Positions 14,018 through 30,929 of a stretch of 64,000 bases of DNA are shown here, one piece after another. The notes under the pieces were generated by a model. It was not told the DNA's origin. It did no database searches and worked only from the letters and a program-made list of their open reading frames with translations. Each line of letters opens with the position of its first letter. Within the stretch, counting starts at the first letter, position 1. A program made the position numbers and the translations under genes. Origin of the DNA: Prochlorococcus marinus XMU1408 (GTDB lineage Bacteria; Cyanobacteriota; Cyanobacteriia; PCC-6307; Cyanobiaceae); contig NZ_QJUE01000002.1 in NCBI RefSeq assembly GCF_003208055.1, positions 1 to 64,000 of the forward strand. Direction: 5' to 3'.

Positions 14018-14614
14018 TTAATTGCAGCGTAATTCCGTGATTTGATCAGCCATTTCCATTACTTTAGGAGGAATAGATGGTCCTGTAAGAATAATATCTG
14101 TAGATGAAGGACGATTATTGATCATAGAAATTAAATCATTTTCTTCAATGAAACCAAGGCTAATTGCCATTCCTATTTCATCAAGTACAATTTTATCTAA
14201 ATTTTTTTCAATTAAACGTTTCTTACAAAATTCCCATAGCTCTTTAATGGCTTTTTCTTCATATTTTTTTTTGAAAGATAAATCTTCTGCCAAGGATTGC
14301 TCAGGTAAGCATGTTTCAATAGCTGGTCTTAGCCATTCCAGACGCCCGCATAGATTTATGGCTCCATTTGGTCCTTGATTAACTCCACCTTTCAAAAATT
14401 GAGATACTAAAACGTTGCTTCCTAATCCTGCAGATCTTAGAGCCTCACTAAGAACAATAGAAAAACTGCCTCTAAAAGTAGAAGTGTGGATTTGAACTTG
14501 TCCTTGCGTTGTGACTAGCTGTAAAGGATTGCCATTGGGGACAGGCCGAAGCGAAGGCTCGTTAGGCGTTGATAAACCTCTTTGTTGAGCATTAATGCTG
14601 ATTTGTGCATTCAT
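14018..14614 (-). CDS. cobO: CobO/BtuR-like protein with a degenerate P-loop
   Basis: The protein aligns by eye with cob(I)alamin adenosyltransferases of the CobO/BtuR class: ALRSAGLGSNVLVSQFLKGG near residues 59-78, LDKIVLDEIGMAISLGFI near 139 (Walker B-like) and DIILTGPSIPPKVMEMADQI near 172, the counterpart of the family's TGR-type C-terminal motif. The Walker A loop, normally GNGKGKTT, is replaced by TSTFRGSF (residues 44-51), without the lysine that binds ATP phosphates. Picocyanobacterial relatives, as I recall them, share this change. Adenosyltransferase activity is therefore uncertain. It is the first gene of a tight minus-strand run with dcd and thyX. Confidence 0.7.
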   Translation of the reverse strand: MNAQISINAQQRGLSTPNEPSLRPVPNGNPLQLVTTQGQVQIHTSTFRGSFSIVLSEALRSAGLGSNVLVSQFLKGGVNQGPNGAINLCGRLEWLRPAIETCLPEQSLAEDLSFKKKYEEKAIKELWEFCKKRLIEKNLDKIVLDEIGMAISLGFIEENDLISMINNRPSSTDIILTGPSIPPKVMEMADQITELRCN

Positions 14615-14933
14615 CTCAATTTTGACCTTGTTGTCACTTTATTAATCTAGCGGGAGAAAAAATCTAATCAACCAAATAAACACTATCTGTGGTGTCTGAA
14701 ATAATAAAATCAAAATTTTTATTGCTTTTGAATAAATTAAAGCGGCCATAAGAAAAGATGAAAACAAATGAAACTTTTGATACTTTTTAAGAGAGTTTCA
14801 AACTTGAAGGCTTTAAAAGATAGAATTTTAGAGTAAGTAATTATTTAGTTGGTGACTTAGGGCTAAAAAAGTCGCCATGGCTACATATCGTTTTTTCTTA
14901 AGTAATTAATGTTCTTTGAACAATAAATTAAAT
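14615..14933. other. Intergenic region between cobO and ntcA
   Basis: This 319-base divergent gap should hold the promoters of cobO and ntcA. I see no GTAN8TAC NtcA box in it, although ntcA is often autoregulated. The only clear structure is an inverted repeat at 14851-14876 (GGTGACTT and AAGTCGCC around a 10-base loop). No open frame of note. Confidence 0.5.
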
Positions 14934-15665
14934 ATGGTCACTTCATATCGTGGCTTTACCCGTTTCAACCAACAGAGAAATAGCCAGATGGCTGTTAATT
15001 CATCATCTTCTTTGCCTCCAAACAAAACACTTTTGGATGTAATTAAATCTCTTGATGGAGTCTCTACTGAGATCGTTGATAGGTCAAAAACAATTTTTTT
15101 TCCTGGCGATCCTGCTGAAAGGGTTTATTTGATAAGGCGAGGAGCAGTTAGATTGAGTAGAGTTTATGAAACGGGCGAAGAAATAACGGTTTCTTTATTG
15201 AGAGAAAATAGTCTTTTTGGCGTTCTATCTCTATTGACAGGGCATAGATCTGATCGTTTTTATCATGCCATTGCTTTTACACGTGTAGAGCTTGTTGCGG
15301 CTCCAGCTGCTTCAGTGAAAAATGCAATTGAGCAAGATGCTTCAGTGGGATTACTTTTGCTTCAAGGTTTATCAAGTCGAGTACTTCAAACTGAAACGAT
15401 GATAGAAACCTTGACACACAGAGATATGTCTTCTCGTCTTGCAAGCTTTTTACTTGTTTTGTGCAGAGACTTTGGTGTCCCTGGGGAGCAAGGAGTAACA
15501 ATTGATTTAAGACTTTCTCATCAAGCTATTGCTGAAGCTATAGGTTCAACAAGAGTTACTATTACGCGATTACTTGGTGAGTTGAAAAGTTCCTCATTAT
15601 TAGCAATTGATAGAAAAAAAATAACTATATTTGATCCAATTGCTTTAGCAAAAAGATTTAATTGA
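14934..15665 (+). CDS. ntcA: Global nitrogen regulator NtcA
   Basis: NtcA is the CRP-family activator of nitrogen assimilation genes in cyanobacteria, responding to 2-oxoglutarate. The cyclic-nucleotide-fold domain carries [22 protein letters not shown] (split near residues 56-77), followed by the dimer helix with [19 protein letters not shown]. The C-terminal helix-turn-helix has [20 protein letters not shown], nearly invariant in the family. I chose the ATG at 14934 over an upstream TTG at 14916; a further in-frame ATG lies about 17 codons later. It probably binds the two boxes upstream of amt1 in this window. Confidence 0.97.
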
Positions 15666-28285: not shown

Positions 28286-29050
28286 GTGATTGAAATTGGA
28301 AAAACCATTATTAAGTTTCCTCCTCTTAGAGAGGGAATTTTAATTAAGAGATATAAGAGATTTTTGGCTGATGTTGAGCTTGATGATGGAGAAATTGTTA
28401 CTGCCCATTGTGCAAATACAGGTCCAATGAAAGGGGTTTTGTGGCCTGGGGGTCGAGTCAGGCTTAGGTATTCTCCTTCACCTAAACGTAAATTAGATTG
28501 GTCTTGGGAGCAAGCTGAGGTACCTAGTTATATCGAGAACAAAAAATGTTGGGCAGGTGTTAATACATCTTTGCCAAATAAGTTGATTAAGCATTTAATT
28601 GAGGCAAATGGTTTAGAGAAAGAATTGGGTGCAATATCCATAATCAAACCTGAAGTGGTTTATGGCAAAGGAGGTAAAAGTAGAATAGACCTATTGCTTG
28701 AGCCAGAAAATAGCAATTTAGATCTTAGGAAGATATATGTTGAGGTTAAAAATACGACTTGGTGCGATAAATCATTAGCATTGTTCCCAGATACAGTTAC
28801 GACAAGAGGTCAAAAACATCTGAAGGAATTAATGGATGTTTGCCCTGATTCAAGAGCAGTTTTAATTCCCTGTATTAGTCGAAAAGATATGGAAATTTTT
28901 GCACCTGGTGATTCTGCTGACCCTCGATATGGAGAACTATTCAGAGATGCCTTAATTAAGGGTTTAGAGGTAATTCCTTGTTCTTTTGGCTTTTTTCATG
29001 ATCGCATCTCATGGGAGGGGATTAAACCCTTTAGGGAATTCCAAAAATAA
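28286..29050 (+). CDS. sfsA: SfsA-type sugar fermentation stimulation protein homologue
   Basis: SfsA proteins have an OB-fold N-terminus and a nuclease-like C-terminal domain; their function is not settled, although a DNA-binding or regulatory role was proposed in E. coli. The 254-residue chain shows AHCANTGPMKGVLWPGG near residue 40, YVEVKNTTWCDKSLALFPDT near 150 and TTRGQKHLKELMDV near 170, all standard. The start is a GTG at 28286. The 271-base gap that follows carries the amt1 control region. Confidence 0.92.
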   Translation: MIEIGKTIIKFPPLREGILIKRYKRFLADVELDDGEIVTAHCANTGPMKGVLWPGGRVRLRYSPSPKRKLDWSWEQAEVPSYIENKKCWAGVNTSLPNKLIKHLIEANGLEKELGAISIIKPEVVYGKGGKSRIDLLLEPENSNLDLRKIYVEVKNTTWCDKSLALFPDTVTTRGQKHLKELMDVCPDSRAVLIPCISRKDMEIFAPGDSADPRYGELFRDALIKGLEVIPCSFGFFHDRISWEGIKPFREFQK

Positions 29051-29178
29051 GGCTGGAATCACTAAATCTTAAAGGTTTTATTTATATTTGGACTAGATGG
29101 TATATCTTATAGTTCATGTGTCAAAACTTTTTTTTCAGAAGAATTAAGTAATAAGTTCTTTAATGAACACAAAAAAAA

Positions 29179-29262
29179 GTATCAACTAATACAATTCTTA
29201 GGTATTAAAGTTTTTTTTTGTATAAACACGTACATCTTTTGTATCTATGTTGCGTGCATATT
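29179..29262 (+). promoter_or_regulatory. NtcA-type promoter with two boxes upstream of amt1
   Basis: Two perfect GTAN8TAC sites are present: GTATCAACTAATAC at 29179-29192 and GTATAAACACGTAC at 29220-29233. They are 41 bases apart, close to four helical turns. Downstream of the second site, after 23 bases, is CATATT (29257-29262), a fair -10 element, so the second box would be centred near -41.5, as in known NtcA-activated promoters. The predicted start lies roughly 55 bases before the amt1 ATG. NtcA itself is encoded in this window. Confidence 0.75.
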
Positions 29263-29321
29263 CATAAATGTATAAATTTTGGATTAACCATCCATTTCTT
29301 TTTTCGCAGTAAGCATCATTT

Positions 29322-30812
29322 ATGACCACTGCTTTGCAATCGCCTCCAAGGCGAACTACTTCTCGTCTTCAAGACGCAAGTCTTTTAAACGGGCCAATGC
29401 TTCTACTGAGAAGCATTAAAGGTTTTAGAAGAAGTCAGTCTTGGGCATGGCTTGCCTCTGTCCCATTGGCGCTTTTGGGATTAGGTGTATTCACTTTCTC
29501 TGCACGCGCCGAGGTCGCTCTTTCAGATTTAACTGGACCTCAGGCAGCTGCATTCTTAGCCGACAACCTTTGGTTATTTATTGCCACAATCCTCGTTATT
29601 TTTATGAACGCAGGATTCGCAATGGTTGAAGCTGGTATGTGCCGTCAAAAAAATGCGGTAAATATTTTAGCTAAAAACCTATTCGTTTTTGCTCTTGCTG
29701 TTACTGCCTATTGGGTAATTGGATATTCCCTTATGTATGGCGGTTCAGTCATTGATGGTTGGCTTTATTTCCAGGGCTTATTTGTTGATCCTGACCCTTC
29801 TGGCGCATTAGAGTGTGCTGCCGCTGGTGATACTGGTTGTCTTGTCCCAGCTGTAGATTTCCTTTTCCAATCTGCTTTTGCTGGTACTGCTGCAACTATC
29901 GTTTCTGGTTTGGTGGCTGAAAGAGTCAAATTTGGAGAATTTGTTGTTTTCTCTATTGTTCTAACTGCATTCATCTACCCAATTGCTGGTAGCTGGCAGT
30001 GGAATGGAGGTTGGCTTTCTGAACTTGGCTTTATTGATTTTGCTGGTTCATCTATTGTCCACTCAGTAGGAGGCTGGGCTGGTCTTGTTGGAGCGATGCT
30101 TCTTGGACCCCGTATTGGCAAATTTGTAGATGGCAAGGCCCAAGCTATGCCTGGTCATAATATGGCTATTGCCACTTTAGGAGCACTAATCTTATGGATT
30201 GGTTGGTATGGATTTAATCCTGGCTCCGAATTGGCTATGGATCAATATGTTGCTTATGTAGCAGTAACAACAACTCTGGCTGCAGCTGGCGGTGCAATTG
30301 CAGCTACAGTTTTATCTACAATTACTTCCGGAAAGCCTGATTTGACAATGATCATTAATGGCATTCTTGCTGGACTAGTAAGCATTACTGCTGGTTGTGG
30401 CAACATGACTTTCGCTGGCTCTTGGCTTGCTGGAGCAGTGGGTGGATTAATCGTAGTAGTTGCAGTAGCTGCTTTAGATTCTGCAGGTATTGATGATCCA
30501 GTAGGTGCGTTCTCAGTTCACGGTGTTTGTGGGGTTTGGGGAACTATTGTTATCGGCCTTTGGGGCGTTGATGGTATGGATCCAGGCGCTGCTGGAATTG
30601 GTCTTCTCAATGGAGGAGGTATAAACCAATTCTTTATTCAAGCATTAGGTGCAGCTGCTTATGGTATCTGGACTGTTGTTACATGCTGGATCGCTTGGCA
30701 AATTATTGGTGGCTTCTTCGGAGGTATCAGAGTTAGCGAAGCAGAGGAGATTCAGGGTCTTGATATTGGAGAGCATGGAATGGAGGCTTATCCTGACTTT
30801 GCTTCTAGCTAA
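29322..30812 (+). CDS. amt1: Ammonium transporter Amt1
   Basis: A high-affinity ammonium channel of the Amt/Mep/Rh family. The 496-residue chain has an N-terminal signal-like segment (about residues 38-62, ending SARAEVALSD) and then about 11 membrane spans. Family features include VIFMNAGFAMVEAGMCRQKNAVN near 95, FQSAFAGTAATIVSGLVAER near 185, DFAGSSIVHSVGG near 244 and FSVHGVCGVWG near 400, with the pore histidines in the last two. G+C content is higher than in neighbours, as is common for highly expressed genes. Two NtcA boxes precede it and a strong terminator follows. Confidence 0.96.
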   Translation: MTTALQSPPRRTTSRLQDASLLNGPMLLLRSIKGFRRSQSWAWLASVPLALLGLGVFTFSARAEVALSDLTGPQAAAFLADNLWLFIATILVIFMNAGFAMVEAGMCRQKNAVNILAKNLFVFALAVTAYWVIGYSLMYGGSVIDGWLYFQGLFVDPDPSGALECAAAGDTGCLVPAVDFLFQSAFAGTAATIVSGLVAERVKFGEFVVFSIVLTAFIYPIAGSWQWNGGWLSELGFIDFAGSSIVHSVGGWAGLVGAMLLGPRIGKFVDGKAQAMPGHNMAIATLGALILWIGWYGFNPGSELAMDQYVAYVAVTTTLAAAGGAIAATVLSTITSGKPDLTMIINGILAGLVSITAGCGNMTFAGSWLAGAVGGLIVVVAVAALDSAGIDDPVGAFSVHGVCGVWGTIVIGLWGVDGMDPGAAGIGLLNGGGINQFFIQALGAAAYGIWTVVTCWIAWQIIGGFFGGIRVSEAEEIQGLDIGEHGMEAYPDFASS

Positions 30813-30844: not shown

Positions 30845-30873
30845 AAAAAGCCCGGAATTTATCCGGGCTTTTT
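30845..30873 (+). terminator. Rho-independent terminator after amt1
   Basis: The stem AAAAAGCCCGGA pairs perfectly with TCCGGGCTTTTT around a five-base loop, 33 bases after the amt1 stop. It isolates amt1 from ispH, which begins 57 bases further on. Confidence 0.93.
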
Positions 30874-30929
30874 AGTGTGGTTTAATATTGATGAGAATCC
30901 TATCAATTTTTTTTAACTTTGTAATTGAA

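Follow-up and report, generated by a model that had tools for sequence, protein, structure and literature searches.

A probable two-site NtcA promoter upstream of amt1

The region at positions 29179-29262 of the window (the whole 64,000-nucleotide stretch of Prochlorococcus marinus XMU1408 DNA that was analysed) is likely to be an NtcA-activated class II promoter of the ammonium transporter gene amt1, with a second NtcA dimer bound upstream near -82.5. The gap between sfsA, which ends at 29050, and amt1, which starts at 29322, is 271 nt long, and both genes lie on the plus strand. Two perfect GTAN8TAC boxes are found within it, with a start-to-start spacing of 41 nt (Table 1). A first-pass annotation of this DNA had reported this pair and, 23 nt past the proximal box, the hexamer CATATT; the boxes were confirmed by sequence reading and pattern search, and the hexamer lies where it had been placed. 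NtcA is itself encoded in the window, where a match to TIGR03697 at 15087-15659 scores 365.2 bits against a cut-off of 244.95. The boxes, their spacing, their conservation and the presence of NtcA can all be read directly from the DNA.

Table 1. Positions of the amt1 promoter elements and associated genes in the window
Feature	Position	Strand	Basis or remark
ntcA, presumed regulator	14934-15665	+	Start codon uncertain; frame open from TTG 14916
Distal NtcA box GTATCAACTAATAC	29179-29192	+	Sequence reading and pattern search; predicted centre about -82.5
T-tract	29211-29219	+	Directly 5' of proximal box; possible RNA polymerase alpha-CTD contact region (inferred role)
Proximal NtcA box GTATAAACACGTAC	29220-29233	+	Sequence reading and pattern search; predicted centre about -41.5
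Putative -10 element CATATT	29257-29262	+	23 nt between proximal box and hexamer
Predicted amt1 transcript start	29268	+	Predicted by adding 41.5 to the box centre, and from the -10 hexamer
Leader hairpin TGGAT-TAACC-ATCCA	29280-29294	+	Between predicted start and ATG
amt1, ammonium transporter, 496 aa	29322-30812	+	PF00909, TIGR00836

Among the features looked for in a class II NtcA promoter, the GTAN8TAC box and a genome that encodes NtcA are both present. The third, a TAN3T -10 element about 20-24 nt past the box, is matched in spacing but not in sequence. The earlier description of CATATT as -10-like thus holds for the spacing and for A2 and T6, which are kept, but T1 is not kept and the strict TAN3T form is absent. 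CAN3T does occur among the predicted NtcA promoters listed in PMC9430850. The amt1 promoter would therefore act in the manner of class II NtcA promoters without having the strict canonical form. That the proximal box is centred near -41.5, as the annotation had it, is correct only if CATATT is the -10 element; if TATAAA at 29271-29276 were used instead, the start would shift about 14 nt downstream.

The surroundings of the promoter were also examined. A strict scan of the sfsA-amt1 gap returned zero intrinsic terminators. After amt1, at 30850-30874, there is a strong terminator-like hairpin (GCCCGG...CCGGGC) with a T-run, which suggests that amt1 forms a single-gene transcript. In the region upstream of ntcA (14600-14933), no GTAN8TAC was found by pattern search; NtcA autoregulation, if it exists, would thus depend on a relaxed site.

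From this layout we infer NtcA binding, the transcript start, a two-dimer mechanism and an effect on induction. The proximal dimer would serve as an ordinary class II activator, replacing a -35 element, and would be assisted by the second dimer, placed 41 bp further upstream, or about four turns of the helix. The two boxes had been placed on the same face of the helix, which is roughly so; at 41/10.5 = 3.9 turns, the phasing is only approximate, and it is near enough to helical phase for the distal box to be a candidate second site of a class III-like tandem arrangement. The upstream dimer might contact or sandwich the alpha-CTD of RNA polymerase along the T-rich DNA that separates the two boxes; alternatively, it might raise the occupancy of the proximal site. 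Tandem CRP sites (class III) work by such second-dimer help. Under nitrogen shortage, high 2-oxoglutarate together with PipX would load both sites, and the response of amt1 would then be stronger, or would set in when less active NtcA is present.

Chance expectation

The window contains 11 occurrences of GTAN8TAC, compared to 6.15 (sd 2.48) in shuffled sequences. On such counts, one GTAN8TAC box alone is weak evidence. The whole genome has 235 occurrences in 1,795,147 bases, and from this rate at least two boxes would fall in the sfsA-amt1 gap by chance with a probability of about 5.6e-4, and any one box would have a second no more than 60 nt away in about 1.6% of cases. Chance as the origin of the amt1 pair is therefore unlikely by the genome rate, and it is contradicted by the conservation described below.

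Conservation in relatives

The window's genus, which is probably the low-light I clade of Prochlorococcus, was represented by amt1 homologues from 34 of 41 genomes; the other seven had no amt1 match at E 1e-100. With identical loci counted once, and with L009/L105 left out since the contig begins 29 nt before amt1, 33 loci with readable upstream DNA remained, the window included. A wider set consisted of amt1 homologues from 80 genome contigs (the best 80 of 583 loci), in which 63 loci outside the genus had enough upstream DNA; L028, with only 21 nt, did not. Three of these matches (L044, L057, and L076) begin at query residue 7, and a GCG lying 18 nt further upstream was taken as their start, which is unreliable; they are counted among the 6 of 63 outside loci without a proximal box.

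The proximal box is present in all 33 genus-mates, 32 times in perfect form, and in 57 of the 63 other marine picocyanobacterial loci, where 51 are perfect (best 80 of 583). CATATT is found at the same spacing in 30/33 genus-mates and CAAAAT, the commonest form elsewhere, in 31/60 other loci (best 80 of 583); on account of this conservation, CATATT is probably a real -10 element. Additionally, columns -4 and -3 before the proximal box, within the T-tract, are T in 33/33 genus-mates.

For the distal site, the pattern GTN10AC was used, to which the NtcA site has been redefined in the literature (PMC6166021). It is present in 29 of the 33 genus-mates, at an offset of -41 from the proximal box in 23 and of -40 in 6, and the next commonest GTN10AC offset, -65, is found in 6. 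The site is a perfect GTAN8TAC in 8/33 (the window, L007, L008, L014, L016, L017, L018, and L097) and has a relaxed form close to TGTGTAAATAAGAACA in 21/33; at this place GTN10AC is absent from 4/33 (L015, L019, L022, and L111). Outside the genus, none of the 57 loci with a proximal box has GTN10AC at -41 or -40 (best 80 of 583), which bears out the view in the first-pass annotation that other amt1 promoters usually have a single box. The comparison across clades that it had proposed shows a second site at this distance to be near genus-wide and usually relaxed in form, and not special to one strain. With a site at the distal place in 29/33 genus-mates, the pair is ruled out as an oddity of the window alone.

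Signs of selection and ancestry of the distal site

All eight perfect distal boxes differ in their inner eight bases, while GTA/TAC and the spacing are constant, as is expected of a selected binding site. In a column-wise comparison, columns -41, -40, -29, and -28 stand out from most of their neighbours, and the adjoining A-rich columns beside the distal site are also well conserved. The NtcA ChIP consensus from Anabaena favours inner T4, C5, A10, and A11 (PMC3898017). By this consensus, the window's distal box has four of the four inner bases and its proximal box one of the four; the mean score out of 4 is 3.25 for the perfect distal boxes (n = 8) and 1.85 for the proximal boxes (n = 33).

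Parsimony on the amt1 gene tree places a perfect distal box in the ancestor of the genus, with 7 changes; 500 shuffles of the labels on the same tree needed 11.9 on average and never fewer than 8. The perfect box thus looks ancestral, not newly gained, which is to be taken as a lead only: the tree is of one gene and some inner nodes are weak, with a support of 0.39 for one group. That the site appears to have been kept by descent argues for a function. Nevertheless, descent could also enter into an explanation without function, by which the distal box is a chance match that has been inherited. The genus-mates are related, so that 29/33 does not represent 29 independent cases, and the AT-rich gap easily yields GT and AC. 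However, GTA/TAC and the 40-41 nt distance stay while the inner bases turn over and the flanks change freely on the tree, and other GTN10AC offsets are not kept. A functionless box is therefore very improbable. The second amt1 site, whose distance is constant in nearly all of the genus, probably takes part in the working of the switch.

The regulator that binds the distal site could be other than NtcA. A second CRP-family protein, a 224-aa ORF at G000:C2 near 501,600 (L126 1429-2103, minus strand), has a CRP-type HTH above the Pfam cut-off, and each of the seven genomes searched has one such hit. Its recognition stretch, IGSTRVTSTRL, is nearly that of NtcA, with IGSTRVT-TRL common to both, and it may be that this protein, or both proteins, bind the distal site and that the promoter reads two signals. 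The relaxed form TGTGTAAATAAGAACA retains the T before GTN10AC that is elsewhere taken as the sign of a CRP-like regulator (PMC6166021), but the distal box of the window has no such T (AGTATC...) and agrees fully with the ChIP consensus for NtcA. At E 0.001 the second protein also gave no match to a cNMP-binding domain, and its identity to NtcA is only 39% over 56 residues. Binding by this protein is, on balance, unlikely.

The distal box might also tune amt1 expression down, as a decoy or an operator, or might serve some other upstream or antisense transcript. NtcA can repress from other positions, according to two reports (PMC6166021 and PMC6316151), and a sigma-70-like match is found on the minus strand at 29124-29097. 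However, the promoter scan gave one match where shuffles gave a mean of 2.0, which is fewer than in shuffles; sfsA runs in the same direction as amt1 and ends at 29050, so no divergent gene needs the distal site; and it is the spacing to the proximal amt1 box that is conserved. We consider such a role quite improbable, and an assisting NtcA dimer remains the preferred reading of the distal box.

Tandem NtcA boxes at other genes

A genus-wide scan was made for two strict boxes lying 26-56 nt apart; the figures on relatives given here are among the matches listed (to G020). The genome of the window has four such pairs, all of them just upstream of a gene: amt1 (41 nt apart), nirA (34 nt), a porin gene beside ureC (32 nt), and a second porin gene (36 nt). 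ureC was named from its sequence by eye, and the second porin is just below the Pfam cut-off. If boxes were independent, about 0.95 pairs would be expected in the genome, and the probability of at least four is about 0.016; the backwards control pattern also gives four pairs, from 411 single sites as against 235 (1.75 times as many).

Six near-complete relatives (G001-G006) have 22 listed pairs, of which 20 were examined. Fourteen precede a recognisable gene: a circularly permuted ATP-grasp gene (4), nirA or a nirA-like gene (4), a porin gene (4), or a nitrate/nitrite transporter gene (2). The gene names rest on first residues compared by eye with domain-scanned proteins. Two of the remaining pairs are inside genes and four are without a clear target. 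In a relative, the gene of a NarK-type nitrate/nitrite transporter is preceded by two perfect boxes 50 nt apart, and relative G013 has three perfect boxes before urtA (L122 1464-1549), 41 and 31 nt apart. The other tandem promoters examined have spacings of 31-54 nt, and 41 nt occurs only at urtA of one relative.

Some of these pairs were noted in more detail. The pairs before the two porin-like genes of the window's genome are at L119 1474-1519 and L121 1498-1547, one of them adjoining ureC, and the porin pair with a 32-nt spacing recurs in relatives with altered inner bases (among the matches listed). A 50-nt pair stands before the circularly permuted ATP-grasp gene at L124 1420-1483 (PF14403) and at L129, L143, L145, and L146. 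Judged by these boxes, the ATP-grasp gene is possibly an unrecognised nitrogen-regulated gene.

A broader proposal would be that paired boxes are a habit of the genus, at amt1, nirA, urtA, nitrate/nitrite transport genes and porin genes, with a spacing specific to each gene, and that they make a steep switch dependent on the dose of NtcA; at amt1 this would be stacked on an older layer, a leader hairpin that tunes the transcript after initiation. We put this forward as a doubtful generalisation.

A hairpin in amt1 leaders

Taken alone, the leader hairpin of the window is unremarkable (z -0.48). In a set of 19 dissimilar leaders from across Prochlorococcus and marine Synechococcus, 18 exceed their shuffles in stability and the mean z is -1.27, although the leaders are not independent. 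The best hairpin averages -7.1 in energy, with -2.9 for shuffles, and the position of its apex varies by 4.5 nt compared to 9.7 nt; 0 of 200 shuffled sets reached the observed energy or apex scatter. In these representatives (L015-L052), the hairpin lies at a near-fixed distance past the proximal box across Prochlorococcus and in some marine Synechococcus. The stem sequences are unrelated between clades, and several clades have a U-run after the hairpin. Additionally, (T)TGCAG or TCGCAG recurs in many otherwise dissimilar leaders, at a distance of about 15-25 nt ahead of the start codon of amt1 (about 29305-29309 in the window).

A glutamine riboswitch in the amt1 leader was considered and rejected, since RF01739 and RF01704 gave no match at 28900-29600 even at E 10; both are absent window-wide at the gathering threshold, and no Rfam family matches at the place of the hairpin in the window.

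Implications for regulation

Prochlorococcus draws its nitrogen mainly from ammonium, and the arrangement bears on how a streamlined regulator set yields graded responses. The clade with two sites and its sister clades with one provide a natural comparison for promoter architecture. Similarly, closely related amt1 promoters whose distal site is perfect, relaxed or absent offer a direct way to measure what a second NtcA dimer does. A search that allows for a single GTAN8TAC in each promoter, or that accepts the strict form alone, would miss part of the regulon.

Comparison with known systems

The canonical class II NtcA promoter has GTAN8TAC near -41.5 together with TAN3T (PMC3898017 and PMC9430850). 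The amt1 promoter shares with it a perfect proximal box, a hexamer spacing of 23 nt, a nitrogen-scavenging gene and a genome that encodes NtcA. In contrast, it has CATATT and a second box 41 nt upstream, and its start is a predicted one.

Work by Olmedo-Verd in 2008 is said to have found that the ntcA promoter of Anabaena works with two NtcA sites. For Anabaena gifA, NtcA sites at -28.5 and -77.5 are described in PMC6316151, the one at -77.5 being thought to activate. Both promoters are like that of amt1 in having two NtcA sites before one gene, and in gifA the upstream site that is thought to be activating lies at a similar distance. Unlike either of them, amt1 has both sites at predicted activating positions, with a spacing that is kept across the genus.

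Enterobacterial class III CRP promoters are alike in having two CRP-family dimers in helical phase, one of them near -41.5. The best-known tandem CRP spacings are somewhat longer than 41, and the activator at amt1 would be NtcA. In the open-licence literature searched, neither tandem NtcA boxes at Prochlorococcus amt1 nor the leader hairpin was found to have been described, and the same holds for a pair of boxes fixed in place at amt1 throughout a genus. Promoters with more than one NtcA site are themselves familiar, so the amt1 pair belongs to a known kind.
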